From: Tubulinosema ratisbonensis
Taxonomy: Eukaryota > Microsporidia > Tubulinosematidae
Assembly (NCBI GenBank): GCA_004000155.1
Contig: RCSS01000933.1
Location: 1 to 14,812, forward strand
Direction: 5' to 3'
Length of the DNA stretch: 14,812 bases
The translations under genes were made by a program, and so were the position numbers. The number at the start of each line of letters is the position of its first letter. The stretch's first letter is position 1. Below, piece after piece: positions 1 through 14,812 of this stretch. The notes below the pieces were generated by a model. The model was given only the letters and a program-made list of their open reading frames with translations. It made no database searches and was not told the origin of the DNA.

Positions 1-911
1 GTTCCAAAAATCAATGGTAGTTATTTTTAAATAAATGATATAATTAATTTTTTAATAATTAATTTAAAAATCTATTCAACGTGTTGTAACATGAAAAAAA
101 GGGAATTTTTTTGGAGTGGGAAAAAACTTACCCCTAAGTTTGAATTTAATAGCAACCAATATTTATATTTTTCGCTTTACTAAAGAATCGGGTTAATTTT
201 GAAAAATAATAAATTTAAAATATATTAATTAAATATATAAAAATAACTATGTCAGTGTTTCTTAAAGTGAAACCAACTTCTTAAAGATGTGCAATTTGAG
301 ATTTTTCGTGGGTCTGGATTCTTTCTCTCTGCGATATTTTATAAGAAGAAAATTTCCTCTATAGATTAATTTTAAATTAAAAATAAGAATGGGAAAACAT
401 AAATATTCAAAGTTTATTGAGGGTCAAAAATTAAAGAGAACAAAAACAAGATGATTAATTCATTGTTGATGTAAAAAATCATCAATGTAAATAAAAAAAG
501 ATCTTTTAATTTAAAATCTTAAAATGCTTATTAAGATGTTTTATAATGAATTTAAAATAAAATTTTTAAAAAAACGTTTATATTTAGTTTTTTTTAATAT
601 ATCAAAAAATCCAATTTTATATAATATTTAGCCTAATGTTTGTCTAAATACTATTTTTTTAAAAAATTTTCTATTATATATTCAAGCATAATGAAAAACT
701 TAAAAATTTTTTAAAAGGGTACTTACTATCATTTTTATCTTATGTTAATGTCTTTTTTTTATTTTTATCAAAACCCATATACTGTAAAAAATAAAGAAAA
801 CTTATGAGGTCATAAAATAATTTAATTAATTAGATTATTTGGTATTAAATTATATCTTTTAAATATCATTTATAAATGAATAAATTTTTAAAACTTTCTG
901 TAACCACACCC

Positions 912-1040
912 TGCAAAGTAAGATAGAGTTAGAAGTCGGTAGAGTGACTAAGGTGGTGAGGTTTTTTGGGTGAAAGGGTATCGATATCTTGCCCTATACT
1001 TAATTATGTAGAAACATATTTTACCACATGTTTTTTTATA
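912..1040. repeat. Dispersed repeat, copy A
   Basis: This block aligns with 4028-4150 (copy B) in the same orientation. Shared blocks include TGCArAGTAAG, TTAGA followed by AGTC, AGGT, TATC, ATAC and AATTATGyAGAA, ending in ATTTTAC. By eye about two thirds of bases match, with small gaps. Similarity seems to fade rather than stop, and weak matches continue to about 1140. No reading frame is conserved between the copies, so I see a noncoding or decayed element. It may be a structured RNA, because CTGCA near its start can pair with TGTAG near its end. A remnant of a mobile element is equally possible. Confidence 0.6.
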
Positions 1041-1200
1041 AATAGAATAAATATTTTTATATAGAAAACATAGTAAAGAATCTTCTTATGGATTTGCATC
1101 CCTAGTTCTCTAAAAAAATCATTAAATTTTATATTATTAGATTATTTTTAGATGAAGATATTTTTTTGTAAAGAATTTTTTATTTGGAAGTGATATTAAG

Positions 1201-1245
1201 TTAAAACCTAATATAAAAGATTATATATTTTATAATAGGTTTTAA
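1201..1245. repeat. Inverted repeat (18-bp arms, one mismatch)
   Basis: The left arm is TTAAAACCTAATATAAAA at 1201-1218 and the right arm is at 1228-1245. The arms pair at 17 of 18 positions around a 9-nt loop. The arms include CC/GG pairs, so base composition alone is not an easy explanation. It lies about 130 bp beyond the 3' end of the asparaginase gene and about 160 bp beyond repeat copy A. It could be a 3'-end structure, a foldback element, or the end of a larger repeat. Confidence 0.7.
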
Positions 1246-1376
1246 TTACATCCCTTTTTAATTTAGTTTAGAATTAAATAAATCAAAATTATCAAAAAAT
1301 TTAAATTTTTGGATAATGACTACAAAAAAATATGTCAGATTTTTAAAAGATAGAATTTTCAAAAATTATTTTTAAT

Positions 1377-2504
1377 TCAATTAGGAGTAAATTCAGCTTT
1401 CAAGGGTTTTTTAAACAGCCTTTTAACTTCTTCAACATCATCAAAATTGCCTAACAAATAAGCCAGCTTGGCATAAGCAGCCTCAAGTGTCATNTCTTCN
1501 CCGGATAAAACGCCAAAATCATGCAAAAATTTACTTCCTTCGTATATATTTTGCACTCTGCCCATTTCGATCTGTGTCACGTTTACTACCACAGTACCAG
1601 AATCCACAATACGCTTGATTGAATCAATAACCCGTTGTTGACTTGGAATGTTTCCCGTGCCAAATGTTTCAAGAATTAATCCCTTTGTATTATTAAAGTT
1701 GATACTGTCAAAGAATAGTGAATCGATCCCCGGATAAATTTTTATTATTCGTATTTTTTTACAAACCTTCATAGAGATTCCTGGTTTTGTAAGTGAATCG
1801 AATTCGCAGATTGGGTTATTTGAGTTATAACAAAGGTTTTCTAATGGTTTTGCGTTTGGGGAGTAAAAAGCATCAAGACTACTTGTAGATTTTTTCTTAA
1901 TTCGTGTTGCAATGAATAAATGTTTATCAAAAAAAACGGTTGGTTTAGAAATGACATGCTTCGCGGCTATTAGCAGCGAATTGATCAAATTAGATTGAAA
2001 ATCGCTATGTTTTTCTACGAAAGCCACCATCGCTCCAGTTAAAATAACAGTTTTATTGAAAGATTCTAACATGAATGATAGGGCTGCTGCGGTATAAGCT
2101 AGAGTATCCGTACCATGGACCACAATAAATGCATCGAAATCGCTGTTTTCATCAATCATTTTCAAAATTTCTAACCAGTTTTGAGGTACTAAATTGGATG
2201 AATCGATTAAAGTTTCTGTCTCTTTGACCACAAAACTTACATCTTCATTCAAATCATTAAAATAAAATTCGTTTTCATCACCATCAAGCTTTCTTGTAAA
2301 ATGAGCTGGTATTTGAGAAATAACATTTACTATCGCCCCCTTTTCAGGCATATAAATTCCATTTCTTTTTACCATAGAAGCAGTTCCTCCAGTATTGATT
2401 ACCAAAATTCTTACGCCATCAACAGCAGCTGATTTTGATTTACAACGTTCACTAAATTTCATTTCTAACACAAAAAATAACAATAACTTTAAACAGATTA
2501 TCAT
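1377..2504 (-). CDS. Type I L-asparaginase (AnsA/ASPG family)
   Basis: It probably hydrolyses L-asparagine to aspartate and ammonia. The 375-residue product follows the bacterial type I enzyme along its whole length. The nucleophile motif TGGT is at residues 38-41 (T41), DSSN at 101-104, HGTDT at 130-134 with T132 and D133 of the second catalytic group, and a lysine (K204) lies before SSLDAF. YPGI, FGTGN and the C-terminal EFTPN also fit. The usual TGSQIP motif reads TGAMVA (156-161), a notable change. The first 30 residues extend beyond AnsA and hold a short hydrophobic run (7-13), perhaps a weak signal or anchor. The start at 2504 is favoured over M15 because a CCC motif sits right upstream. 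Two ambiguous bases near the 3' end are third-codon positions; one codon is GGN, so glycine whatever the base. Five of ten arginine codons are CGN, unlike neighbouring genes, which may point to transfer. Confidence 0.93.
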   Translation of the reverse strand: MIICLKLLLFFVLEMKFSERCKSKSAAVDGVRILVINTGGTASMVKRNGIYMPEKGAIVNVISQIPAHFTRKLDGDENEFYFNDLNEDVSFVVKETETLIDSSNLVPQNWLEILKMIDENSDFDAFIVVHGTDTLAYTAAALSFMLESFNKTVILTGAMVAFVEKHSDFQSNLINSLLIAAKHVISKPTVFFDKHLFIATRIKKKSTSSLDAFYSPNAKPLENLCYNSNNPICEFDSLTKPGISMKVCKKIRIIKIYPGIDSLFFDSINFNNTKGLILETFGTGNIPSQQRVIDSIKRIVDSGTVVVNVTQIEMGRVQNIYEGSKFLHDFGVLSXEXMTLEAAYAKLAYLLGNFDDVEEVKRLFKKPLKAEFTPN

Positions 2505-2506
2505 AA

Positions 2507-2509
2507 GGG
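2507..2509 (-). promoter_or_regulatory. CCC-type start-proximal motif, asparaginase
   Basis: On the coding strand the sequence reads GACCCTTATG, which puts CCC two bases before the ATG. C-rich motifs of this type just upstream of start codons are known in microsporidia. Here it supports the long N-terminus over an internal start. Confidence 0.55.
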
Positions 2510-3072
2510 TCTAAAATAATAAAACAATTATGTTTGATTTAAAATTATATTCTTAGAACTTTTACGGGTTATTTTTATGAGTTTATTAAATGATTTTTAT
2601 TAATTTTCTATTTTTGAATGTAGATTCTTATTTTTTATAAGATTTGTATTTTTTTTTGGCAAATTAGTTTACTGATGAGGAATGTTTTTCTAGATTAGAT
2701 ATGTTGATTATAAAATATAACATTTTTTGATTTTTTTTGTTTTGATCGAGTTAAAAAGGCTTAATTTTAATAGTTTTGGACAACCAAATATTTTCATAGA
2801 TTTATTTTGATTTTATTGATCTAAGATATTTTGATTTTTATATTAAATCAATTAAAGAGAAAACAAAAAACTTATCGGTCAATATTAATAATATGATCTG
2901 ATGTTTTTTTAAATTGAATTCGGTTATAAGTTATATCGGATTTAAAGATAAACTGTGATATTATTATTCATACTATTGCTAAATACTACTATCAAAGTCT
3001 AATCATCAAAGATCATCTTTATCCAAATCATGTCAACCCTTTAAGATATATAAAGACAAACATAAAAAATGC

Positions 3073-3100
3073 ACAGATCTTTTTTTACAGTATGATCTGT
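3073..3100. repeat. Short inverted repeat (7-bp arms)
   Basis: ACAGATC at 3073-3079 pairs with GATCTGT at 3094-3100 around a 14-nt T-rich loop. The short arms could arise by chance in this composition. No gene is nearby. Confidence 0.35.
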
Positions 3101-4027
3101 AAATAAATTGTGGTTCAAAGTAATTATAATGCAATAAGATTGATAAGCGATAGCATTTTAAGAAATTGAAAAGATTTTATCAATTTTTATTCTTTAAATT
3201 GTGCATATCCTACATATAATTTATTGTCTTTTAATTTTCACTTAGTATTAACTTATTAGAATAATTTTTTTTTCTGAATAATTCAAGATATTATTGTTAA
3301 ATGTTAATTGTATATTTTTTAAGAATTTTATTTTATAACTAACCTGTCTAAAGAAACTTATGTAAAACAAATTTAGAAAAAAGGTTTTGAACAGATTTTA
3401 TTCATAAGATTGTTGTAAGTCTTTTTTTATATTTTCCCTCACTATTGTTTTTGTAATGTTCACAGACACCTTTATATAATCATATAAATGTCATACTTGT
3501 TTTGTATTTTGACATAAAATTAAAGATTTCAAAAAGAAAATTTAAACAGTCATGTTTTTATTCTCAACATACATTAGCGATATATTTATTGATCTGATAA
3601 TAACTAAAAGGTAAAGTTTTTGTTAAGAATTATGCAAAAATTGACATCTGAAATTAACTACAAATTTCAATAGTTGGATTGAAAATTTAAAATTTTACTT
3701 GATTATTTCAACCTTAAATATGTAAAATTTTTCACTTAATACGAATTTAATAACTATTTTTCAAAAAGCATTTGTACGCAATACACATATTTTACGCAAA
3801 ATTTTAAATTTATTTTTTTGTCATAAAAATTTATTTATTTCGTAAGGCCTCAATCAGAATTGTTTTTAAATCTTGTTTAAATTAATATCTATTATCTTTT
3901 ACAATATATCAAACATAAATTCAAAGAAAAAATAGATTCAATACCATGGTGTTTTGATGTTTGATTTATTACTTTGTATTGTTATTAAAAATTATTAGTT
4001 CAAAATAAAATCCCTGGAACTGAAGGC

Positions 4028-4150
4028 TGCAGAGTAAGGGAGACTTAGACAGTCAATAAAATGCACAGGTTGGGTTTTATGGTGGAAAACTCGCTGTATC
4101 CTACGATATACCCAATTATGCAGAACTCATTTTACATATATTTCTTTATA
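4028..4150. repeat. Dispersed repeat, copy B
   Basis: This is the partner of 912-1040 in the same orientation, about 3.1 kb away, and weak similarity continues to about 4250. It is visibly less AT-rich than the surrounding spacer. Its ends can pair (CTGCA near 4027-4031 with TGCAG near 4119-4123). GGGTTTT at 4072-4078 can pair with AAAACTC at 4086-4092, with G-U allowed, and GTATC can fold with GATAT around CTAC. This would suit a structured RNA of roughly 100 nt. I could not match it to tRNA, 5S, U6, SRP or another known RNA. A 33-codon open frame from 4061 is absent from copy A, which argues against coding. Confidence 0.6.
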
Positions 4151-4418
4151 CTCAAATATTAATATATTACTTAAAAGGCATATCGAACGATCTTATTAAA
4201 AATTTCACATCTTTAGGTAATAAAAAAAATATTAAGTTCAACTATATATTTTTTTACAACATACTTCATTAATGTAAATATTTTTTATGAAAATATAAGA
4301 TATCTTTAGACATAATGTATTATCATATTTTGTAAATTTTTTTCTCAAATTAAATATATTTAAATTTTTATAATGGTGTTAATCATAAAATAATCGCTTT
4401 AGCAATACGTTAACCCTT

Positions 4419-4458
4419 ATACAAATTTAATAAATTGATCGCCTTATTAAATTTGTAT
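4419..4458. repeat. Perfect 15-bp inverted repeat
   Basis: ATACAAATTTAATAA at 4419-4433 and its exact reverse complement at 4444-4458 enclose the 10-nt loop ATTGATCGCC. It lies about 270 bp beyond repeat copy B, much as the hairpin at 1201-1245 lies beyond copy A. The function is unknown. Confidence 0.7.
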
Positions 4459-5249
4459 CTTTTAAAAGGTTCAATGAAGTATTCAATTTCTAAACAATAA
4501 ATTTATTTGCTTAATCATTTCTTGATAAATTTATATATTTTTACAAATATATTGATTAGAAAATTCTGTGAATTTCACGGTAGTAGCCTTGGCTTCCTGT
4601 AATTAAATTGCAATAAATTTTTTGTTTGCTATTTTTTTATTTATTACTTTTTTCTGGATATTATCTTAAAGTAATTAATCTTCCTTTGATAGAATATTTT
4701 CTAAAAAATTTAGAACCGATAAACTAATTTAATAAACACTTAAAATACCTTTTTATATAAATCATAACTTAGAATTCTGTAATTTTATGCTAAGAATCCC
4801 AAAAACTTTTAGAAAATATAAGTTTATGGTGTTTTTTTTTCTAAAAAATACATCTTTTGTAAATCAAAGTATACATATTTGAATATATAAATCATTTTCT
4901 GAGCACTTATTTTAATAAAATTTGACAAATTCATTTTTTAAGTCCTGATTTTAATAAATTAAAGTTTTCCTAAATTTCATAGAATAACAAATTAGAAATA
5001 AGCTGCTCAAATATTTTTAATACCTAAAAAATCTATAATAACTTTACTCTAACAATTCTAAGTTTACTAAAAAAAAATTATTTGATCAAAAACGTATTGG
5101 TAATCTGTAGATTGAAGTTTTCTAAGAAAAAGCTGATTTTTTATAGGTTAAAAAATCTTGAAATATTTCCTTATAATTTCTTTCCTATTGAAAAAAATTT
5201 TCTTATTAAAGAATTTCTTTTTCTCTCTTCAAAAATATTTAGTGTAAAA

Positions 5250-5358
5250 ATAAAAATTATAACTCAAAATTATTAAATCACAAAAAAATAAAAAAATTTT
5301 TAATTTAAAAATAAAAACTTTGACTCAAAGTTAAAAAATCAAAAAAAAAATAAATAAT
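5250..5358. repeat. Diverged AT-rich direct repeat, period about 61 bp
   Basis: Two units of about 48 bp, starting near 5250 and 5311, share ATAAAAA, ACTCAAA and AAATCA followed by A-rich runs. The second unit contains a small palindrome, ACTTTG-ACT-CAAAGT. It lies just beyond the 3' end of the LRR gene. Low complexity makes the boundaries soft. Confidence 0.4.
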
Positions 5359-5384
5359 TAAAAAAATGTACAAAAAATATAATT

Positions 5385-7307
5385 TTATAAATATTCATAA
5401 TAATCCTTTTCTTTTTCTTGTTTTTCATGAATAACAATTCTATCAACAGTCAATCCAATATCATTAAGCTTAATCTTAGCATTAACAAACTTCTTACCAA
5501 AAGATTCTAATTCTTCCAAATTAAAATTAGTATCATACTGCTTAATCTTAATATACTTAATATTCTCATTCTTAAACTTTTGATTGATAAACATTTTACA
5601 TTCGTTTTCGTTTAAAAATGCATCATTCAAAATCAATTCTTCAAGGGTAATTTGGTTAATCAAACTAATTAAATCATCATTTTTTAGAGATAAAAAAGAT
5701 AGTTTTACCNTTTNAANNTTTGTAAATGATTTAAATAGCAAATTTAAATTGTTGTGATCGCAGTTTACCATTTCAAATTTTGTACAATTTAGCTTTGTAT
5801 TCGTAGCTGATATGTTTAAATTTAATCTGTGAAAGGAAAGATCTTGTACGTTTGTNAGGAATGAATAATTTACTAATTTTAATTCGTGTTTTGTGGAGTG
5901 CATGGATGACAAATCCAAATTAAGGTTGTTAATTTTGAGCTTTGATAAATTTAATTTCTCAAGAAAATCAAAATTATAGCTGTAAAATGGTGATAAATAC
6001 AAGGTTAAAGCACTTAATTTACATCCTTTTAAAGTAGAAAAGGTTACATTCTTTCTTGTTTGNGTGAAGGGAGAACTTTTATAAACCAAAGTCAAATCAG
6101 TAAGCTTTTTTAGTTTGGTAATAAAATTAATTTTTTTATCATCCAATTCTTCTATTTTAACACCCAAAACACTTAAATTTTCGTTTAGAACAGGCTCTTC
6201 GGACAAGTCACCAATCTGTAAATTGGTTAAATTTGTATTTTTTAAAATTGAAACTTCACTGCCCAACAAATTTTTACTTGAAGAATAGAAAAAAGATCCA
6301 AGATCAGATTGTTTTACAGCCTCAAACAGTTCTTTTACTTTGCTATATTCTCTATAAGGAATGATTATCAGTGTTTTTAAATTTTTTAAAAATTCTTTTT
6401 TAAAAAACAAACAAGCAGAACTTCTTAGCTCTAACAAAGACAACTTTTTAGGTAAATTAAATTTAATATCTTTGGGATGAATTAAATTACAGCTAACAGA
6501 CAAATTTTCTAAATTAATAAACTGCTTAACAAACAAAGCTCTTTTTTCATTATCAATGTCTAAACTTAAATTTACAATCTGTTTAATTTTATCGCCAAGA
6601 ATGTCATAAACAGATTGTAAATTTTTAACTTTCAAAGAAACAAGTTTTTTACTAAAAAATTCTTTTTCTGGGATCACATTGTAAATTTGTAAATTAGGTA
6701 TTTCTAATAAAATCAAAGCTCTTTTCAAAAACTCATTCTTGTTAATTTCTTCTAATGTTTTATTTGTAAATTTTAATGTAAGATAATTGCTTTGATTTAC
6801 TTGTGAAAAGTAATTGAGATTACTTCTGATTGACAGATTAGAAATAGAATTAAAAAAAGGTTCTAAACATAAATCATCATCACTCAAAGAAAGTAATTCC
6901 CAGTACATAAAAACAAACTTTTGTAAATAAAAAGAATCTTTTAAAATATTTAAAAGAAGAAATGATTTGGTTTGCTTGTTTTCTTTTAACATTTTTATTA
7001 AATTGTTAAGAAAATTGTTTATACAAGCAGAAGTACAATAATTTAGGATTGTTTTACCTATTTTGGTTAAATCTGTTTCTGTTTTGTATTCCTCTAAGCA
7101 TAGCTTGATTAAAATATCAAATTCGTTGTCTGATAAATCTAATGACAGGTATTCTTTTTTGCCGAAAAGGCTTGTTTTTGTGTTAAACAAATTTTTTTGT
7201 TTTATTTGTGGTAAATCAAACATACTTTCGTTTATTTCGTGTTCTTTTTTTGATTTTAAAATGATTTTGGTGTAAAGGAAGGGAAATAAAAGAGGAAAGA
7301 TTGACAT
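5385..7307 (-). CDS. Leucine-rich-repeat protein
   Basis: The 640-residue product is rich in Leu, Asn, Lys and Ile. From about residue 200 to 620 it shows repeated, irregular LRR strands of the kind LxxLxLxxN, for example LTDLTLVYKS, LSALTLYLS, LNNLNL-like segments and LEELILND. LRR proteins act as protein-binding scaffolds, and divergent LRR families are common in microsporidia, where some are secreted. The first 17 residues (MSIFPLLFPFLYTKIIL) are hydrophobic and could be a weak signal or anchor. If translation starts at M29 (ATG at 7221-7223) this segment is lost. No clear CCC motif precedes either ATG. Six ambiguous bases affect the gene: four clustered in codons 530-533, and one each in codons 415 (ACN, Thr) and 484 (CTN, Leu). 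It is divergent from the Doa1-like gene, 133 bp away. I do not recognise a specific orthologue. Confidence 0.8.
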   Translation of the reverse strand: MSIFPLLFPFLYTKIILKSKKEHEINESMFDLPQIKQKNLFNTKTSLFGKKEYLSLDLSDNEFDILIKLCLEEYKTETDLTKIGKTILNYCTSACINNFLNNLIKMLKENKQTKSFLLLNILKDSFYLQKFVFMYWELLSLSDDDLCLEPFFNSISNLSIRSNLNYFSQVNQSNYLTLKFTNKTLEEINKNEFLKRALILLEIPNLQIYNVIPEKEFFSKKLVSLKVKNLQSVYDILGDKIKQIVNLSLDIDNEKRALFVKQFINLENLSVSCNLIHPKDIKFNLPKKLSLLELRSSACLFFKKEFLKNLKTLIIIPYREYSKVKELFEAVKQSDLGSFFYSSSKNLLGSEVSILKNTNLTNLQIGDLSEEPVLNENLSVLGVKIEELDDKKINFITKLKKLTDLTLVYKSSPFXQTRKNVTFSTLKGCKLSALTLYLSPFYSYNFDFLEKLNLSKLKINNLNLDLSSMHSTKHELKLVNYSFXTNVQDLSFHRLNLNISATNTKLNCTKFEMVNCDHNNLNLLFKSFTXXXXVKLSFLSLKNDDLISLINQITLEELILNDAFLNENECKMFINQKFKNENIKYIKIKQYDTNFNLEELESFGKKFVNAKIKLNDIGLTVDRIVIHEKQEKEKDYYEYL

Positions 7308-7348
7308 GGCTGAAATGTTTTAGTAAATAAATATTTAAAAAATTTTTT

Positions 7349-7376
7349 AATTTTTAATTTTTAATTTTTAATTTTT
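7349..7376. repeat. Tandem AATTTTT repeat in divergent promoter region
   Basis: Four 7-bp AATTTTT units lie in the 133-bp spacer between the divergent LRR and Doa1-like genes, followed by more T-rich sequence. It may serve as an open promoter tract or simply be replication slippage. Confidence 0.6.
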
Positions 7377-7435
7377 ATTTTTATTTTAATTTTATATTCT
7401 ACTTATTTACTTATTTTTATTTATTATTTTTCTAA

Positions 7436-7439
7436 CCCC
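7436..7439 (+). promoter_or_regulatory. CCC-type start-proximal motif, Doa1-like gene
   Basis: The sequence TCTAACCCCA is immediately followed by the ATG at 7441. The four C residues stand out in a spacer that is otherwise almost only A and T, and they support this start codon. Confidence 0.6.
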
Positions 7440-7440
7440 A

Positions 7441-8982
7441 ATGCTAACACCTAACAAAAAAATTAAATTACACACCTCAGACATAAAAGATATTTATTTT
7501 GACACAAAAACACTCATAACAATAGGAAGAGATAGTAAATTAAGAATAATTACAACAGATAAAAATATTACAAAAGAGATAAACCAAGGTTATTTAAATT
7601 CTTTGGCAGTAAAATTACCTCACATTTTTATAGGAACACAAAGTGGTACTTTATGTGTCTATAATTTAGAGACCGATAATTTTTCTAATGTAAAAATACA
7701 TGAGAATAATATTTGTACCATGAAAATAAAAGATAATCTTTTAATTACTGGTAGTTGGGATAATTCAGTAAAAGTAATTAATTTACTTAAATTAATACAA
7801 AAGAAAGAAGAAGTAATCTTTAACGAAAAGTATAAATGTACTGTTTTATCTGTTAATTTTTATAAAACAGGGTTCATTACAGGTTTAGAGAATGGTATAA
7901 TTAATTTTTACAAGAAAAAAGAAGAAAGTTTTGAAAAAATAAATGAATTTTACTTACACAACCACCCAATCAGAGATTTATTTGTGAAAGATGATTTAAT
8001 AAAATCAGTAAGTGTTTCTTTGATAGAAAGTAATGAGAAAAAAGTAAAAAATTTTATTGATTTTGATAATTTTATGTTTGGTTGCACTGAAAAAATGGTT
8101 GTGGGAGACACAGGGTTAATTGTTTATGAAGGAAAAAGTTATCAGATACCAGTAGGAACAATTTGGAAGGTAGTAGAAGTGAATGATACTTATTTATTGA
8201 CATGTTCTGATGGTTATATTTACATTTTTAATCAACCAATTTCTCTAAATTTTCAAAATGAAGAAGATTTTCAAGTAAATGAATACATAAAAAACCAAGA
8301 AGAATTTCAAAATGAAGAGCTCAGTGAAGATTACAAGATTGAAGATGGAATAATTTACCAGAAAGTAGGCGATAATTTTATAAAATTAGGTAAAATTAAG
8401 TATGACAGCTCATTTACCATAGAAATAGAAAACAGAAATATCAACGTAGAATTCAATAAAAACGAGTCNCCCACTGATATAGCAGCAAGAATAATCAAAG
8501 AAAAGAAGATAAATCCAATCTACAAAGAAGAGATCTCTGATTTTATTAAAAAGAATTTTAAAAAAGAAGAATCTTACAAATACTTTACAGGTTTACCAAA
8601 AGAAAAAGTAATTCCACTTTTACAAACCAAACCAAATTTAAAAAAATTAATATGTGAAGAAAAAACAGATTTAGAAAAAGTACAAGAAGAATTAAATGAT
8701 TTATTTAACGANTCAAAATTCTTATTTTTAGATTTGTTAAGGTATTTTTACAGTAAAAATCTTAAATTTAATATCAATTTTTTGTTTGATTATCAACCTG
8801 ATTTTAAGAATAGTAAAGAATGTTTGGCTTATGTTAGGTTGATTACTAATTTATTTGGGAAAGTTAATTTGAATTTGGAGATGTTTAGAAGAATTATGAT
8901 GGATATTTTAGATACTGGGTTGGTTGATAAANGAAAGTTTTATGAGTATGAGTTTAATAGACAAGTTATTCTTAAGAAATGA
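7441..8982 (+). CDS. DOA1: Doa1/Ufd3/PLAA-like WD40-PFU ubiquitin-binding protein
   Basis: In other eukaryotes this family binds ubiquitin and the Cdc48/p97 ATPase and acts in ubiquitin recycling and turnover. The product has 513 residues, against about 715 in yeast Doa1. Residues 1 to about 275 form a WD40 propeller with degenerate blades (for example LLITGSWDNSVKVINL and YLLTCSDGYIYIFN). Residues about 295-380 match the PFU domain: an EDGIIYQKVGDNFIKLGKI stretch, then an FTIEI strand, and IYKEEISDFIKKNF near its end. After KYFTGLP, where the Doa1 linker has KYFP-like sequence, only about 130 residues remain, with one LDLLRYF segment resembling the start of the PUL domain. PUL, the usual Cdc48-binding part, is therefore short or truncated. 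Ambiguous bases lie in codons 343 (TCN, Ser), 424 (GAN) and 498 (NGA), so the C-terminal frame is less secure. The start is supported by the adjacent CCCC motif. Confidence 0.85.
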   Translation: MLTPNKKIKLHTSDIKDIYFDTKTLITIGRDSKLRIITTDKNITKEINQGYLNSLAVKLPHIFIGTQSGTLCVYNLETDNFSNVKIHENNICTMKIKDNLLITGSWDNSVKVINLLKLIQKKEEVIFNEKYKCTVLSVNFYKTGFITGLENGIINFYKKKEESFEKINEFYLHNHPIRDLFVKDDLIKSVSVSLIESNEKKVKNFIDFDNFMFGCTEKMVVGDTGLIVYEGKSYQIPVGTIWKVVEVNDTYLLTCSDGYIYIFNQPISLNFQNEEDFQVNEYIKNQEEFQNEELSEDYKIEDGIIYQKVGDNFIKLGKIKYDSSFTIEIENRNINVEFNKNEXPTDIAARIIKEKKINPIYKEEISDFIKKNFKKEESYKYFTGLPKEKVIPLLQTKPNLKKLICEEKTDLEKVQEELNDLFNXSKFLFLDLLRYFYSKNLKFNINFLFDYQPDFKNSKECLAYVRLITNLFGKVNLNLEMFRRIMMDILDTGLVDKXKFYEYEFNRQVILKK

Positions 8983-9121
8983 TTAATAAATGAGAATGTA
9001 AAAGTATTTTTTTTTTGCGAAAATTAATTGTTAATTATCTAATTTTGTGTTTTGATTTTTCTAAAAAAGATTTTGTAATGAAGTATCATACCTAAGTGGT
9101 AAAAAAAAGTTATTGTTTTAA

Positions 9122-9168
9122 CTTGTTATGATGTAACAAGAACATAAAAAATTTGTGTTCTTTTTTTG
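9122..9168 (+). repeat. Two overlapping hairpins followed by a T run
   Basis: CTTGTTA (9122-9128) pairs with TAACAAG (9134-9140), and AAGAACA (9138-9144) pairs with TGTTCTT (9156-9162). The two stems share AAG, so they are alternatives or stack end to end. A run of Ts continues to about 9167. The form recalls the end of a polymerase III transcript, but no matching RNA is recognised. Confidence 0.4.
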
Positions 9169-9341
9169 GCATTTTAAGGGAGAAAAATTACAAAATAATT
9201 TGACCAATCAGCTTCCAGCGTAATAAAAATAGTATATAATAAAGATATAATAAATTATATGATTTCATTTGTCATAAACAAATAAAAATAATTTTTTTAT
9301 AATAATTGAGAATTCCTTTTTTTCTCATACCCAGAGAAGGC

Positions 9342-9455
9342 ATGCGACTCTTTCAATACAACAGTAAAATAAATAGGTATTTTAAATTTAACAACCATAT
9401 TATGACAATATTAATAAAAAAATTTAATTTTTGTAGACATCTTAGTAATACATGA
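9342..9455 (+). CDS. Doubtful small ORF, 37 codons
   Basis: An ATG-started frame encodes a basic 37-residue peptide beginning MRLFQYNSKINRYF. A CCC lies 9 nt upstream of the ATG (9330-9332) and the first 40 bases are less AT-rich than the spacer. There is no recognisable family. It is not in frame with the histone-fold gene that starts 62 bp further on. It may be chance. Confidence 0.15.
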   Translation: MRLFQYNSKINRYFKFNNHIMTILIKKFNFCRHLSNT

Positions 9456-9517
9456 AAATCTTTAATTATTGGTTAACAAATTAATATTTAAAAAAATAAT
9501 ATTTTTATTTTTTTAAA

Positions 9518-9886
9518 ATGTTATTAACTGATTTTTACATACAAAAGTATAAATATAAAATTTTATCAGATCAACCTTATACAATTGTAAACCTAGAACA
9601 AATGCATAAACCAGAAGAAAATAATTCAAATTTGAGAAAAAAAATAAAAAAAGAAAATCAATTATTTTCTAAAAATAAAATATTAAAAATATTAAAAGAA
9701 TTAAATTTAAATTTCGAAAATACAGAATTAATTTCCAATAATTTAGAAATATTTGTAAAGAATTTAATAAGAAATTCAATCACAAAAGCAATTTCTAAAG
9801 GAAGAAAGACTTTGTTTGTTGAAGATATTAAAGAAAGTATAAAAGAGATGAGACTGTTTTACTTATATGATTTAATAAATGAATAA
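9518..9886 (+). CDS. Histone-fold protein, probably NC2alpha/NF-YC type
   Basis: The product has 122 residues. Residues about 50-120 fit a histone fold: helix 1 (FSKNKILKILKEL), a long helix 2 (LISNNLEIFVKNLIRNSITKA), the RKTL loop, helix 3 (EDIKESIKE) and a tail FYLYDLI. The initial F..NKI.KIL, the LEIFVKNL core and the FxxLxDL-like end resemble NC2alpha (DRAP1/Bur6), NF-YC and the Dpb3/CHRAC class, which bind DNA as heterodimers with an H2B-like partner. The helix 1 to helix 2 loop is about four residues shorter than in human DRAP1. The 49-residue N-terminus is unrecognised. There is no CCC motif at the ATG. The gene converges with eL39, only 16 bp from its stop. TAF-type proteins are alternatives. 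The histone fold is fairly secure; the exact family is not. Confidence 0.65.
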   Translation: MLLTDFYIQKYKYKILSDQPYTIVNLEQMHKPEENNSNLRKKIKKENQLFSKNKILKILKELNLNFENTELISNNLEIFVKNLIRNSITKAISKGRKTLFVEDIKESIKEMRLFYLYDLINE

Positions 9887-9902
9887 AGCTATTTATTTAA
9901 AA

Positions 9903-10080
9903 TTAATAGATTTTTAGTTTGGTGTTCCTCCAATGTCTTTTTTTAACATTGTAATATTGTTTAAAACCGCTCATTCTTCTCTTCCAGGCTGGGATGTTTC
10001 TGTTCTTACGGTATGCCTTTGCTAGTCTTGTTTTTATGATTTCTGTCTTCTTGAATCCCTAATTAAATTTTACTTACCAT
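9903..10080 (-). CDS. RPL39: Ribosomal protein eL39 (RPL39), spliced
   Basis: This is a small basic protein of the large ribosomal subunit. Exon 1 is just the ATG (10078-10080). A 19-nt intron (10059-10077) follows, and exon 2 (9903-10058) encodes 51 residues plus stop, giving 52 in total. The product aligns without gaps to the 51-residue eukaryotic eL39 from its first methionine. It shows KT at 5-6, LAK at 13-15, NR at 20-21, IPAW at 23-26, [10 protein letters not shown] at 40-49 and a basic C-terminus. Without splicing the frame stops after five codons. A CCC motif lies 5 nt upstream of the ATG. The gene is less AT-rich than its surroundings. It converges with the histone-fold gene. Identification is strong; only the exact acceptor is inferred, since an in-frame AG nine bases further would give a product three residues shorter. 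Confidence 0.93.
10059..10077 (-). other. RPL39: 19-nt spliceosomal intron in eL39
   Basis: On the coding strand the intron reads GTAAGTAAAATTTAATTAG. It has a canonical GTAAGT donor, a branch-like TTTAAT fused to the TAG acceptor as in other microsporidian introns, and it lies directly after the start codon, the usual place in microsporidian ribosomal protein genes. A downstream AG in frame would make it 28 nt; the gap-free protein alignment favours 19. Confidence 0.85.
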
Positions 10081-10085
10081 TTTTA

Positions 10086-10088
10086 GGG
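10086..10088 (-). promoter_or_regulatory. RPL39: CCC-type start-proximal motif, eL39
   Basis: On the coding strand the sequence is TACCCTAAAAATG, with CCC 5 nt before the ATG. It independently supports this start codon for a gene whose first exon is only ATG. Confidence 0.6.
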
Positions 10089-10376
10089 TAAAATTTTTTT
10101 TATTATTTTTTAAAAAAATTAAAAGAATATAATTTTTAATAATAACAAATAAATAAAATTATTTAATTTGTTTTATTTTTTTCATAATTAAACACTAAAT
10201 TTCAAATTATAAGTGATATAAAATTAATAAGAAAATTATAAAAAAAATTAATAAAAATAAATTATCAAATAATAGAATAATTAATTAAAATTATAAATAA
10301 ACTAAAATAAAAAATAAATCAAAATTAAATTAAAAATATAAAAAACATATAAATTATTTATTTTTTAACCAATACA
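10089..10376. other. Divergent promoter spacer, eL39 / COG4-like
   Basis: The stretch is almost entirely A and T between two divergently transcribed genes. Apart from TTAACC at 10365-10370, 6 nt before the plus-strand ATG and perhaps a weak version of the start-proximal C motif, I see nothing distinct. Confidence 0.5.
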
Positions 10377-11207
10377 ATGGAAAAACTTAAACAATTATTT
10401 CTTAAAAGAAGTGAACTTTTAGCAAAGAAAGATAAATTATTCATAGAAATAACCTTAAAAGAAAAACTAACAAACCTACAAAAGAACATCAAAGAAAAAA
10501 ACTATGAAGAAATAATAGAAACATACTATCTTATCAAAGAAAGTGATAATCCTAAAGAAAAAAAGAGATGTTTTGATTTTTTAGTAGAACAAACTTCTTC
10601 TCTTTTAAATTATGATAATCTTATTACTTTAAAAAGAATTACCAGTCTTCTTAACAATGATTTTATACAATTAATCTCTAATAAATTAATAACTTACTTT
10701 AATAACAAAGTAAATCAATTTAGAAAAGATATGTTAGCACATGACACATACGAAATGTACCAATTATTTCTTAATTTGGACAGTAATAATAAATTCGGGT
10801 TGCAAATTGAAATGAACAACATTCTTATAAAAAATATAAATTATTTTCTAAAGAAAGGAGAATCTTTGATAAAAAATAATGAATCTGATCTTTTATTAAT
10901 TGATAGATGGTTAGAAGAGTGTTATTTNTTTATGGATCTAAGAGTAGAATTAAAAAATAATGAGTTAAGGCAATTATTAAGCAAAATAGAATTATTTTAC
11001 TTAAATCAATGTATAAATTTAGTGTTTAGGGATGATAAAGTGCATGGTAACAAAGATTTATTCTTTTTAGTAAAAAGGATTTATAAAAGACAAAAGGGGT
11101 GTGAATTAAAATTAGAGAATAAAATTAAAGAGACTGTTTTTGAAAGTAGAATGTTAAATGAAGAAGAGAAAGAAGATTTGTGTAGAATATTAGAAATTAA
11201 TAAATGA
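10377..11207 (+). CDS. Helical protein, possible minimal COG4-like tether subunit
   Basis: This 276-residue protein looks all-helical, with a basic, coiled-coil-prone N-terminus (1-45). Several segments line up in order with COG4, a subunit of the conserved oligomeric Golgi complex that tethers vesicles. LQKNIKEKNYEEIIETY (34-50) fits the COG4 ALRxxDYExAA helix. NLITLKRITSLL (81-92) fits the VERFFKIFPLL region. LIDRWLEECY (174-183) fits its LTEV helix region. FYLNQCINLVFRDDKV (207-222) followed by DLFFLVKRIYKR (227-238) resembles EYFMRE and DVFYIVKKC. COG4 is usually over 700 residues, so this would be a drastic reduction. The match rests on short similarities recognised by eye; another CATCHR-type tether or an unrelated helical protein remains possible. 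One ambiguous base gives codon 184 as TTN (Phe or Leu). No clear CCC motif; the ATG follows AACCAATACA. Confidence 0.4.
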   Translation: MEKLKQLFLKRSELLAKKDKLFIEITLKEKLTNLQKNIKEKNYEEIIETYYLIKESDNPKEKKRCFDFLVEQTSSLLNYDNLITLKRITSLLNNDFIQLISNKLITYFNNKVNQFRKDMLAHDTYEMYQLFLNLDSNNKFGLQIEMNNILIKNINYFLKKGESLIKNNESDLLLIDRWLEECYXFMDLRVELKNNELRQLLSKIELFYLNQCINLVFRDDKVHGNKDLFFLVKRIYKRQKGCELKLENKIKETVFESRMLNEEEKEDLCRILEINK

Positions 11208-12904
11208 ATTATTTTTTACATTCAATTTAATTGTTAAATCATTTAATTTACTAAATAGAATTATTATAACTGATTATTTATTAATTGACAAGAGTTATCA
11301 AATTGTATCATAAAAAGTAATTCTAAACCATGAAAATAAATGATTTTTTTATCAACTTATTTGTTTAATAATATTCCTTTAATTTATTTTAATAAATTGT
11401 ATGTTTTTTTTGTTGCCTAGGGATGGGAAATTCATACGGAGATCTTTTCGCTATACCTTCTTTACAAGAATATTTATAATAAATTGTATATTTACCTGGT
11501 GAAATCCTTTATTCATATTTATACTTTTAATGTTTTAGATGATTTAGAGATAAATAAACGTTATCATGACAAAAAAGTCAGTGTCAGAATATCATTTATT
11601 AAATGATTGAGTTAAAATTATTTTTATCATGTATTCAACCATTTATAATATGTTTATTAAAAATGATCTCATTACCTTATCTTTATTTACTTAATGAAGT
11701 TCTCTAAGCACTTCTTGTTTTGTTATTCTTATTCTTTGGGTAATAATTTTATTTACATAGATATTTTTATGATATTTTTTCATTTAAAAAATGTTTTTAT
11801 GAGTATATTTTTTCATGTTTTTTTCTTTTTTCTATGATGAATTCTTATTGTAAGACTTAATTAAAAAATTAAAATTTTATTTTTTTTGAAAACATTGCAA
11901 TAAAATTAAAAAAATATTCTCATTTTAAAAATAAAAATAATGATTTAATATAATTTTATATTTATAAAATTTTTTTATATAAGAAATGTTTATAAAAATA
12001 TTTCATTTTTTCAATAAATAAAAAATAATATTATTTTTTCTTATAGATTATTGTCTAGAGAAGTTGATAATTTACCCAACCTCAGGTAATTTAAATAAAA
12101 GAATCACAATTTTTCTTTATTCATCATTCTTTAAACATTAAAGGTATTTTTTATTTGTTTATTTATTCTGTCATAGTTGACATAATTATAAAAAATATTA
12201 GGTCAGTTATTGAAAGTTAATTCATTCTTCAAAAATATTCCTATTTATGTAAAATATTACAGTAGTATTTATTTTTATTCTATAAAACATTCATTTTCTT
12301 ACAGCACTGACTTATTTTAAATAAATCTTATAATTAATAATTTAATAAAGTATTTTTATATCCTAAGTGAAAATAAAACAAACAATAAATAATTCAAATA
12401 ATTAATTTAATTTTTTTTTAATTTAACTTTTTATAGAATTTTTAATTTGTTCTTATGATTTTTAAAAAAAATAAGATTTTGTTTTTTAGCTGAAAAAACT
12501 TTCTTTTATCACTTAAATAAAGTAAAAATATATTAAAAAATATTTTTTAAATTTCTCCTTTTTAAGTAATTTTCTTTTTTCGTATGCATGTGTTCTAAGA
12601 CTTACATAAATTTGACAGAGAGTTTAACTCTTATTCAAAGATGTTTAATTTAGAAATATTTTAATCTATAATTCTAAAAATAAAATTTTTAAATTAAATT
12701 ATAAATCTATTTATTTAAAATATCTAATATTCAGTCAGTATCTATCTTTATACAATAGCATAAAAAAATAATATCATAAAATATTAATTTTAAAATTGAT
12801 AATATAATTTTTAAAAAAATTATACTTGTAAAATAAAATTTTAAATTAATAAAAAATGATTAAAATTTATGCTATAAAAAATAAAATATTTTACTCAAAT
12901 AAAT
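11208..12904. other. 1.7 kb AT-rich spacer
   Basis: No gene is supported on either strand. The one striking object is a GC-richer block bounded by 13-bp direct repeats (11390-11489). A 33-codon frame from 11401 crosses that block but resembles nothing known. A small less AT-rich patch near 12052-12085 was also read without result. No tRNA-like sequence was found. Confidence 0.55.
11390..11489. mobile_element. 74-bp block between 13-bp direct repeats, possible insertion
   Basis: TAATAAATTGTAT occurs at 11390-11402 and again exactly at 11477-11489. The 74 bp between them contain a core near 11416-11460 that is much richer in G and C than the surrounding spacer. This arrangement fits an insertion with a target-site duplication, such as a small retroposed RNA or decayed element. 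Part of the core (GAGATCTTTTCGCTATACCTT) resembles repeat copy A near 983-1002, so it may be a third, shorter member of that family. Chance direct repeats in AT-rich DNA remain possible. Confidence 0.45.
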
Positions 12905-14551
12905 TTAATTTTTAGATGGCAAAATATCATCAATGTTTAACATAACAATTGTACTCTCAATTGCTAGTTTTACAGCTGATAAAATCACTTTTATTGGCTG
13001 TAATACACTCTCTTCTACCATGTCTGTCACTGTGTTAAGCCTTACATTTATGCCATGTCCTTTAACTTTCATCAGAGTAACTGTCTCAATAGGATCCATT
13101 CCTGCATTCTTGGCAAGTAAAAAAGGAATTATTTCGAATGCATCTGCTATGCTGTCATAAATAAACCCTTTTTCTTTTCTGATATTCTTGGCTATTTCCA
13201 TTTCTAATACACCACCACCTGGCACTAAGTATGGGTAAAAAATCAAAGATTTTACCACTCCAAATGCATCATTCATACTTCTTTCCACTTCATCCAACAA
13301 AACATCATTCTCTCCTTTTAATACAACAGTACAAATTGGTGATTCTTTAGAAATAGGATTGAAAATAAAAACANTGTCTTTGTGGTCGTAATTCACTGAT
13401 TTTACAAACTCATTTTTTACAAAATCAATATCTGACACTGCTGTAATGTTTAAACACTTCTCTAAAAGTGAAATATCTTCTCTGTCCACTCCGTCTAAAA
13501 CAGAAATACCTAATTTATTCAAATAATGTACACCAAGTTCACTGACAGAGTCTCTTAAAATGCTTTTTTGTACGATCAATAATTCTACTTCTGTCTCTTT
13601 TATCTTTTTACACATATTTAAAATGTAATCTCTTTCTTCTTTGATAGTTTTTTCCATTAACTCTGCGTTGTTTACAATTATTTTTGAGTCTAAGTTTGTT
13701 TTAGGAGCAGAAATGCAAAATTTGACTGCCATTGTTTTTAATGCTTTGTTTTTTTGTAAATTTTTGGTTGGAAAGAATTTTTTAGATTCTAACCCTACCC
13801 CTTTAAAGTAAAATGATTCATCAGTGGCACCTCTTATCTTTAAAATTTTTAGTTTTTTCATCTCTCCCTTACAAATTAACATACTGTCAACTGCCAAATC
13901 AGACAATTCTGCAATCGAAGAAACAATTTTAGAACTAAGAGAAGTAAGTGCTGCTTTTTTCAATGCCTCTTTAAGTTGACTTTCTTCCATTTCCCAAAGC
14001 TTTTTTCTATCTTCTTCTAAAATTTGAGTGTTGTTAAAATTTTCACTGATTTTTAATTTGTTCATTTTTTCTTTTATCAACGAATGTGCTTGGTTCATTC
14101 TTACTTTACTGTCTTTTATTTTCATTTCTTCTCTAAAAACTGAAAAGACGGGGTATGCAAACTTAAAAATAATCTCTTCAGCCAAAAGAGTACTCTTTTT
14201 TAAATGATCAATAATCTTTGACTTAGAAATGCCTTGTTCAATGAGTTCATTCATTTTTACAAACAGTTCACTTATCAACAAAATTACTGTGGTTGTACCA
14301 TCTCCACACTCCAAATCTTGTGTCTTAGAAACAGAGTCTAACAGCCTAACGATTGGATGTTTAGCATTTTTGCCTAAAAAGTCTAAGATGGTAGCACCGT
14401 CATTGGTGATAATTGTCTTTTTTTTGGTGGTTAACATTTTATCTAATCCTTTAGGTCCGAGTGAGGTAGAGAGAGTATTTCCAATTGAGGTAACCAAATC
14501 TTTTAAACTTGTTTGGATTTGAGTGTTTCTGGTTGTTAATTTTTCAGTCAT
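12905..14551 (-). CDS. CCT4: T-complex protein 1 subunit delta (CCT4)
   Basis: This is one of eight subunits of the cytosolic TRiC/CCT ring, which folds actin, tubulin and other proteins using ATP. The 548-residue product has the group II chaperonin signatures: LGPKGLDKM (31-39), TNDGATIL (49-56), the nucleotide-binding GDGTTTV (83-89), ERSMNDAF with the hydrolysis Asp at 428, PGGGVLEMEIA (444-454) and NAGMDPIETV (482-491). The delta subunit is indicated by FCISAPKTNLDS (278-289), EERDYILN, QKSILRDSVSEL (328-339) and DREDI. Human CCT4 has 539 residues with a longer N-terminus. Here the N-terminus is short, but about 54 extra charged residues lie between YPV (133-135) and TSLSSKIV (203-210), where the human protein has about 13 residues in total. 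Codon 393 is ANT owing to one ambiguous base. A CCC motif precedes the ATG. All 12 arginine codons are AGA or AGG. Confidence 0.95.
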   Translation of the reverse strand: MTEKLTTRNTQIQTSLKDLVTSIGNTLSTSLGPKGLDKMLTTKKKTIITNDGATILDFLGKNAKHPIVRLLDSVSKTQDLECGDGTTTVILLISELFVKMNELIEQGISKSKIIDHLKKSTLLAEEIIFKFAYPVFSVFREEMKIKDSKVRMNQAHSLIKEKMNKLKISENFNNTQILEEDRKKLWEMEESQLKEALKKAALTSLSSKIVSSIAELSDLAVDSMLICKGEMKKLKILKIRGATDESFYFKGVGLESKKFFPTKNLQKNKALKTMAVKFCISAPKTNLDSKIIVNNAELMEKTIKEERDYILNMCKKIKETEVELLIVQKSILRDSVSELGVHYLNKLGISVLDGVDREDISLLEKCLNITAVSDIDFVKNEFVKSVNYDHKDXVFIFNPISKESPICTVVLKGENDVLLDEVERSMNDAFGVVKSLIFYPYLVPGGGVLEMEIAKNIRKEKGFIYDSIADAFEIIPFLLAKNAGMDPIETVTLMKVKGHGINVRLNTVTDMVEESVLQPIKVILSAVKLAIESTIVMLNIDDILPSKN

Positions 14552-14554
14552 TGA

Positions 14555-14557
14555 GGG
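14555..14557 (-). promoter_or_regulatory. CCT4: CCC-type start-proximal motif, CCT4
   Basis: On the coding strand the sequence is CATCCCTCAATG, with CCC 3 nt before the ATG. It matches the placement seen at the asparaginase, eL39 and Doa1-like genes and supports the chosen start. Confidence 0.6.
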
Positions 14558-14812
14558 ATGAAAAATACCTAAATTAAATATTTTAATAAAAAATAAAATT
14601 TTATAAAAAATAAATTAAGAAATAATTTTGTTTTTTAAAAATATTATTATTAAAACAACTAGGGTTATATTTACTGCAAAAGAAATTTACAAATATTAAC
14701 TTACACATCTATAAAATTTGAAAACGATATTTAAAGATATTTATTTATTTTAATGTTCAATAAAACTTTTAACCATTACTGAAAATATATTTTTAAGAAT
14801 AAAAATTGTCCC
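14558..14812. other. AT-rich upstream region of CCT4
   Basis: Nothing beyond A/T-rich promoter-like sequence is seen. A GTAAGT followed 25 nt later by TTTGCAG occurs on the minus strand near 14668-14698, but no exon flanks it. Confidence 0.4.

Follow-up and report, generated by a model that had tools for sequence, protein, structure and literature searches.

Short introns in microsporidia and other eukaryotes

Introns of the microsporidian Encephalitozoon cuniculi measure 22-76 nucleotides (nt) (PMC3629993) and carry the branch motif CTAAYTT (PMC2483917). The intron search in Trachipleistophora hominis used the pattern GTA[AG]GT...TAATT...AG, and its S17 and L39 genes have motifs at intron positions of the E. 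cuniculi and Nosema ceranae ribosomal protein genes (PMC3486916). Here we analyze the gene for ribosomal protein eL39 in a 14,812-nt stretch of DNA from Tubulinosema ratisbonensis (assembly GCA_004000155.1, contig RCSS01000933.1, positions 1-14,812; hereafter, the window), in which 19 nt directly after the start codon have the appearance of a spliceosomal intron. This parasite of flies resembles E. cuniculi in having short introns at the 5' ends of ribosomal protein genes, but differs from it both in intron length (19-20 nt) and in the branch motif (TAATTAG). A first-pass annotation, made from the letters of the window alone, had proposed that the eL39 intron is shorter than those of Encephalitozoon, which agrees with the published range. 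Since the motif is known in T. hominis L39, the position of the eL39 intron is itself already known; the 19-nt form was not met in the text consulted from that report, which gives intron lengths in its supplements (PMC3486916).

Comparably short introns have been described in mikrocytids (16-17 nt), heterotrich ciliates (15-16 nt) and the chlorarachniophyte nucleomorph (18-21 nt), and these groups share with T. ratisbonensis a narrow, fixed intron length, the mikrocytid introns also having conserved sequences (PMC10245619). The annotation had placed 19 nt close to the smallest known introns; this length falls within the known eukaryotic extremes and sets no record. The difference lies in numbers and signals: introns are many in Mikrocytos mackini (224) and in the nucleomorph (>800) (PMC10245619), whereas few are supported here, and the Bigelowiella natans nucleomorph combines no identifiable 5' motif with an ACAGAGA box in U6 (PMC6461891), whereas rigid motifs and an ACUGAGA box are found in T. 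ratisbonensis. According to an earlier survey, very intron-poor species did not have especially short introns, and branch motifs were lacking in those lineages whose introns were the shortest known at the time (PMC2483917); mikrocytids have since been shown to have introns that are short, conserved and numerous (PMC10245619). T. ratisbonensis would be their intron-poor counterpart, a microsporidian that joins the small circle of eukaryotes whose introns are fixed at a near-minimal length, yet with few introns and rigid motifs. Its reduced spliceosome would offer a test of a very small distance between donor and branch site.

Our literature search, with subscription papers and supplements beyond its reach, returned no title or abstract reporting introns of T. 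ratisbonensis or Anncaliia, or microsporidian introns as short as these. What is new here beyond the first-pass annotation is a genome-wide class of 19-20 nt introns, a spliced-looking gene copy, a U6 variant and a truncated record of ribosomal protein eS1.

The eL39 gene and its probable 19-nt intron

We estimate at roughly 0.9 the probability that the 19 nt in eL39 represent a genuine U2-type spliceosomal intron. The segment has GT-AG borders, and both its 5' splice site and its branch sequence (GTAAGT...TAATTAG) conform to what is usual in the clade, as the annotation had noted in calling its donor and fused branch/acceptor microsporidian in look. Its removal restores a conserved reading frame and its retention breaks that frame, the same being true of the introns in eL43, eS1, Arv1 and three paralogous genes described below. 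The spliced product of 52 residues matches the Pfam family PF00832 (Ribosomal_L39) over the full profile (positions 1-42 of 42) with 56.8 bits (E=1.7e-15), well above the family cut-off of 21.6 bits. In a comparison with solved structures 57 distinct sequences match it at E <= 0.001; chains 6zu5, 6rm3 and 7qep (51-52 residues) give gap-free alignments that begin at residue 1 or 2 and reach residue 52, and chain 7qca aligns up to residue 50. The proposed coordinates and gene identity are thereby borne out. The N-terminus M-G-x-K-K-T agrees with these four chains of microsporidian type, all aligned from residue 1 or 2. We take 6rm3, 7qep and 7qca to be microsporidian, and 6zu5 to be from Paranosema locustae, an assignment that fits the eS1 protein P0128.

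With the intron kept, translation yields five residues (MVSKI) followed by a stop. In addition, the codon immediately 5' of exon 2 is TAG, so that no in-frame upstream start can serve this exon without splicing. The features of the gene, all on the minus strand, are as follows.

10078-10080, minus strand: coding part of eL39 exon 1, the start codon ATG alone (from the sequence)
10059-10077, minus strand: predicted spliceosomal intron GTAAGTAAAATTTAATTAG, 19 nt, phase 0 (from the sequence and the motif count)
10072-10077, minus strand: 5' splice site GTAAGT (from the sequence and the motif search)
10059-10065, minus strand: TAATTAG, branch site fused with the acceptor, including the putative branch adenosine
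9903-10058, minus strand: eL39 exon 2, 51 codons and the stop (Pfam PF00832 and solved eL39 chains)
10086-10088, minus strand: CCC-like transcription signal, 5 bases 5' of the ATG (from the sequence; signal as in PMC2803860)
10091-10096, minus strand: AAATTT-like ribosomal-protein promoter signal (from the sequence; signal as in PMC2803860)
9892-9897, minus strand: AATAAA, a probable polyadenylation signal within the 16 bases that separate eL39 from its convergent neighbor (end at 9886)

In the splicing reaction as we envisage it, U6 would pair with GUAAGU, the lariat would form at the UAAUUAG adenosine, which lies some 14 nt away from the donor, and the AG ending four bases past this adenosine would serve as the acceptor, in keeping with a fixed spacing. 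AAATTT and CCC signals precede microsporidian ribosomal protein genes, and 5' untranslated regions (UTRs) are shorter than 7 nt in the tested E. cuniculi genes (PMC2803860). If transcription of eL39 likewise starts just 3' of the CCC signal with a 5'UTR of this kind, its exon 1 would be only ~8 nt long. Most likely, the intron is an old microsporidian inheritance that shrank, together with the other clear introns of the genome, to a near-minimal fixed length.

The annotation had described the gene as hidden, being missed by finders of open reading frames. This is borne out only in part, as a 52-residue protein identical to the spliced product is already present in the protein collection (P0001), which suggests that the 19 nt were probably removed earlier by some person or program; the eS1 record, by contrast, lost 12 residues to its intron (see below). 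A protein search with eL39 as the query returned only this protein of the window itself and no eL39 of relatives.

Other genes with probable introns of 19-20 nt

Our genome counts cover 4.12 Mb in 236 contigs, probably the longer ones given that those whose lengths were listed all exceed 10 kb, whereas the published draft comprises 952 contigs and 7.56 Mb with 23.2% GC (PMC6675976); the GC content of the window is 22.5%. The pattern GTAAGT-N2-22-TAATTAG, open to lengths of 15-35 nt, had 22 matches on both strands compared to 12 for a reversed-pattern control. By length, one match each is of 17, 18, 24, 26 and 33 nt, two each are of 22 and 35 nt, four of 19 nt and nine of 20 nt. The 19-20 nt class thus accounts for 13 of the 22, against 0.7 expected under order-2 Markov statistics (derived from the loci analyzed and scaled to the genome) or 1.1 from the reversed control, which was scaled by length, its counts being not split by length. 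These matches are not independent: a single gene family contributes seven of the 13.

Ten of the 13 are backed by homology or paralogy, namely those in eL39, eL43, eS1 and Arv1 and two introns in each of three membrane-protein paralogs; all ten are 19-20 nt long, a narrow fixed length below 22 nt. The annotation had advised a search for similar short introns in other ribosomal protein genes of this genome, and candidates are indeed present: in eL43 and eS1 they sit directly after the ATG, as in eL39, and measure 20 nt each. The spliced eL43 product matches PF01780 (E=8.1e-36) and aligns from residue 1 or 2 to the four eL43 chains listed, and that of eS1 aligns from residue 1 to chain 6zu5_SB0. 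In Arv1 the 19-nt intron is internal to the gene. Exon 1 alone matches positions 1-26 of the family profile (17.7 bits) and exon 2 alone positions 28-93 (26.4 bits), whereas the joined exons match positions 1-92 with 55.3 bits, which indicates that removal of the 19 nt closes the domain. The membrane-protein paralogs (loci L007/L008, L011/L012 and L019/L020) have intron pairs of 20+19, 20+20 and 20+20 nt. Spliced at both, they encode 274-275 residues and align gap-free across the two junctions, whereas without splicing their frames end at 147-159. No Pfam match was found for the one family member scanned. Judged by these alignments, the genome carries a small, length-fixed set of apparent ultrashort spliceosomal introns.

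We leave the three remaining matches of 19-20 nt as unproven: one (C107) has no frame, another (C231) has a frame that is only lengthened and lacks a clear relative, and the third, on C60, belongs to a partial paralog of the membrane family. The nine matches of other lengths (17, 18, 22, 22, 24, 26, 33, 35 and 35 nt) gave no spliced frame from an ATG longer than 29 residues and were taken as chance occurrences.

Variations of the pattern added no further supported introns. A search with ATGGTAAGT-N2-26-YAG gave 22 rows (control 11) at 17 distinct sites, and splicing restored a conserved gene at three of them, again eL39, eL43 and eS1. At 13 of the other 14, with which no homology search was made, the spliced frames do not exceed 60 residues; at the last one (C41) splicing shortens an ordinary frame that has 172 residues when unspliced. 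Neither a wider branch-acceptor spacing, TAAYNNAG (16 matches, control 44), nor the donor variants GTAAG[ACG] (4 matches, control 6) were enriched. The relaxed pattern GTANGT-N4-9-TAAYNAG gave 46 matches against 25 in the control. Seventeen of these are matches of the original pattern and 11 belong to a dispersed repeat, which leaves 18, below the control. Eighteen new loci from this search were viewed in context (11 further new rows lie outside this set), and none gained a frame by splicing; three had frames, all longer when unspliced. The 11 repeat rows, a 19-mer family of GTATGTTTCTTTTAACTAG and its variants, were first taken for introns and proved to be a dispersed non-coding repeat without reading frames. 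Nine of them, viewed in context, have repeat flanks like CTATACCTAATTATGTAGAAACATATTTTACC; the repeat loci are L024, L026-L028, L031, L036, L037, L039 and L041, and sequence resembling the repeat was also seen by eye in the window near 990-1040 and 4090-4140. The pattern searches as a whole address short introns with the given signals and could miss longer ones or those with other signals.

A membrane-family copy lacking both introns

A protein search with one spliced paralog brought up a further member of the membrane-protein family (C184:5832-6641; L066 1433-2391), whose frame is open throughout and shares 88% identity with the query over residues 1-270. In the DNA alignment both 20-nt introns are missing exactly at their GT..AG borders. 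Relative to the start codon, the block of similarity spans about -66 to +890, stopping a few bases beyond an AATAAA; its flanks, within the stretches available, are unrelated to those of the paralogs on C95 and C165. The copy is a chimera, C95-like up to position 402-423 and C165-identical thereafter, with four mismatches in all and none against C165 between positions 402 and 890, counted from the start codon.

The copy either arose by reverse transcription or is an RNA-seq contig that became joined to the assembly; the latter is conceivable because genomic and RNA-seq contigs of T. ratisbonensis were assembled jointly with CAP3 (PMC6675976). Either way, the copy would be best explained, as its simplest source, by RNA already freed of both 20-nt introns. 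Absence of the introns is unlikely to be the ancestral state, as the distant C60 paralog keeps both introns at the same places. By eye, one partial member (C179) lacks the first intron and has further stops, being probably decayed, and another (C95:13652-13900) lacks the second intron.

Splicing machinery and the U6 box

A U6 small nuclear RNA (snRNA) gene was identified by Rfam at L042 1501-1598, minus strand, with 57.9 bits against a cut-off of 44, the sole match in the analyzed part of the genome. Its 5'-splice-site box reads ACUGAGA instead of the Rfam consensus ACAGAGA, in one copy of a draft assembly. As judged from spliceosome structure, the third base of this box lies opposite intron position +4. 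The U of ACUGAGA could therefore pair with the +4A of GUAAGU, where an A would not. The same base of the ACAGAGA box is presumably the N6-methyladenosine site of U6; no member of the METTL16 family (PF05971) was found in the analyzed part, a weak negative given that nearly half of the genome lies outside this search. No report of the ACUGAGA variant was found in the literature search by title. Of the protein components, a Prp8 RRM_4 match was found inside a 1381-residue frame.

It is conceivable, although we would put its chances distinctly below even, that the Tubulinosematidae have a minimal spliceosome tuned to a fixed ruler of 19-20 nt, that the U6 box changed from ACAGAGA to ACUGAGA for full pairing with an invariant GUAAGU, and that Anncaliia algerae shares such introns unnoticed.

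Weighing the alternatives

Several observations weigh against a functional intron in eL39. Splicing was not observed for six of the eight candidate introns of Spraguea lophii, those being short ones adjoining the start codon, as here, and the short introns of E. cuniculi S17, L27a, S24 and L5 are spliced in less than 15% of transcripts (PMC3749934); one E. cuniculi intron of 27 nt is unspliced (PMC2803860). U2 snRNA was not found by Rfam in ~4.1 of the 7.56 Mb, where U2-like words also showed no clear excess (36 matches, control 32), and the spliced-looking copy concerns 20-nt introns of another gene rather than eL39 itself. Poor splicing in Spraguea has been linked to candidates open to read-through (PMC3749934), an explanation that fails for eL39 because its retention brings a stop and a frameshift. 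By analogy with these species, a low splicing rate of eL39 is quite possible; its total absence is not, if this is the sole eL39 gene, as the retained form cannot be read through. Another idea is that eL39 splicing acts as a regulatory switch, e.g. through stage-dependent retention shutting off eL39, rather than as mere housekeeping. That retention stops translation after five codons and that median splicing efficiency in Vavraia culicis is 25.3% (PMC4435813) would suit such a role; no sequence feature points to regulation, however, and we regard it as improbable.

The annotation had itself named a 28-nt intron using the next AG, after GGATTCAAG, as the competing form, with a product starting MKTEII.... 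This AG is present, the frame is kept, and the resulting 49 residues score equally in Pfam (57.1 vs 56.8 bits), a further point against the 19-nt boundary. Nonetheless, the four chains of microsporidian type start with G-x-x-K-T, like the 19-nt product, and the ten supported introns end in the AG of TAATTAG at 19-20 nt (TAATTAG being itself part of the search pattern); for these two reasons the 19-nt reading is preferred. In the longer form, moreover, the branch adenosine would be separated from the exon by 13 nt rather than 4, and we consider this form very improbable. Least probable is the alternative that eL39 is a pseudogene here, or a product of misassembly, and that no intron is present at all. 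The draft assembly does carry scattered single N bases, and, with one eL39 match in the 4.1 Mb analyzed, a second copy may exist elsewhere; exon 2, however, is intact over all its 51 codons, the promoter signals are in place, exactly the same splice signals recur at the same length in unrelated genes, and the protein collection holds the identical 52-residue protein.

A truncated eS1 record and Anncaliia

The deposited eS1 of T. ratisbonensis has 218 residues and begins at an internal Met, the 12 N-terminal residues being missing through the intron. The eS1 gene on contig C154 (locus L018, minus strand) is 100% identical to this record, and when the 20 nt are spliced out the product gains MAIKVQSVTKKQ, aligned with P. 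locustae MAKKDQPVTKKS. This is a practical annotation fault, in which a deposited ribosomal protein lost its N-terminus.

The eS1 search gave 34 matches, of which 17 were aligned. Among the latter, the A. algerae protein (P0125) and two relatives (P0123 and P0124) start at the same internal Met, whereas P0127, P0128, P0131 and others retain the N-terminus. As a lead only, this pattern hints at an overlooked eS1 intron shared in the family, including A. algerae; a more distant protein (P0130) that begins at the same Met weakens this reading. A. algerae has been named as devoid of introns (PMC8476143). Introns too short to be noticed may be the reason why Anncaliia is so regarded.

Other genes of the window

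The convergent neighbor of eL39, 16 bases away, encodes a small protein (9518-9886) whose similarity to the histone-fold family CBFD_NFYB_HMF is weak (E=0.002) and falls short of the family cut-off. Scans of the window with Rfam and for tRNA genes gave no matches. Two long open frames, 5385-7307 (640 residues, leucine-rich in appearance by eye) and 10377-11207 (276 residues), are without a Pfam match. Single N bases occur in several frames of the window, which fits a draft assembly made by merging. The other genes encode an asparaginase (1377-2504), a WD40/PFU-domain protein (7441-8982) and CCT delta (12905-14551), the last being 80% identical to CCT delta of A. algerae and 90% to another protein.
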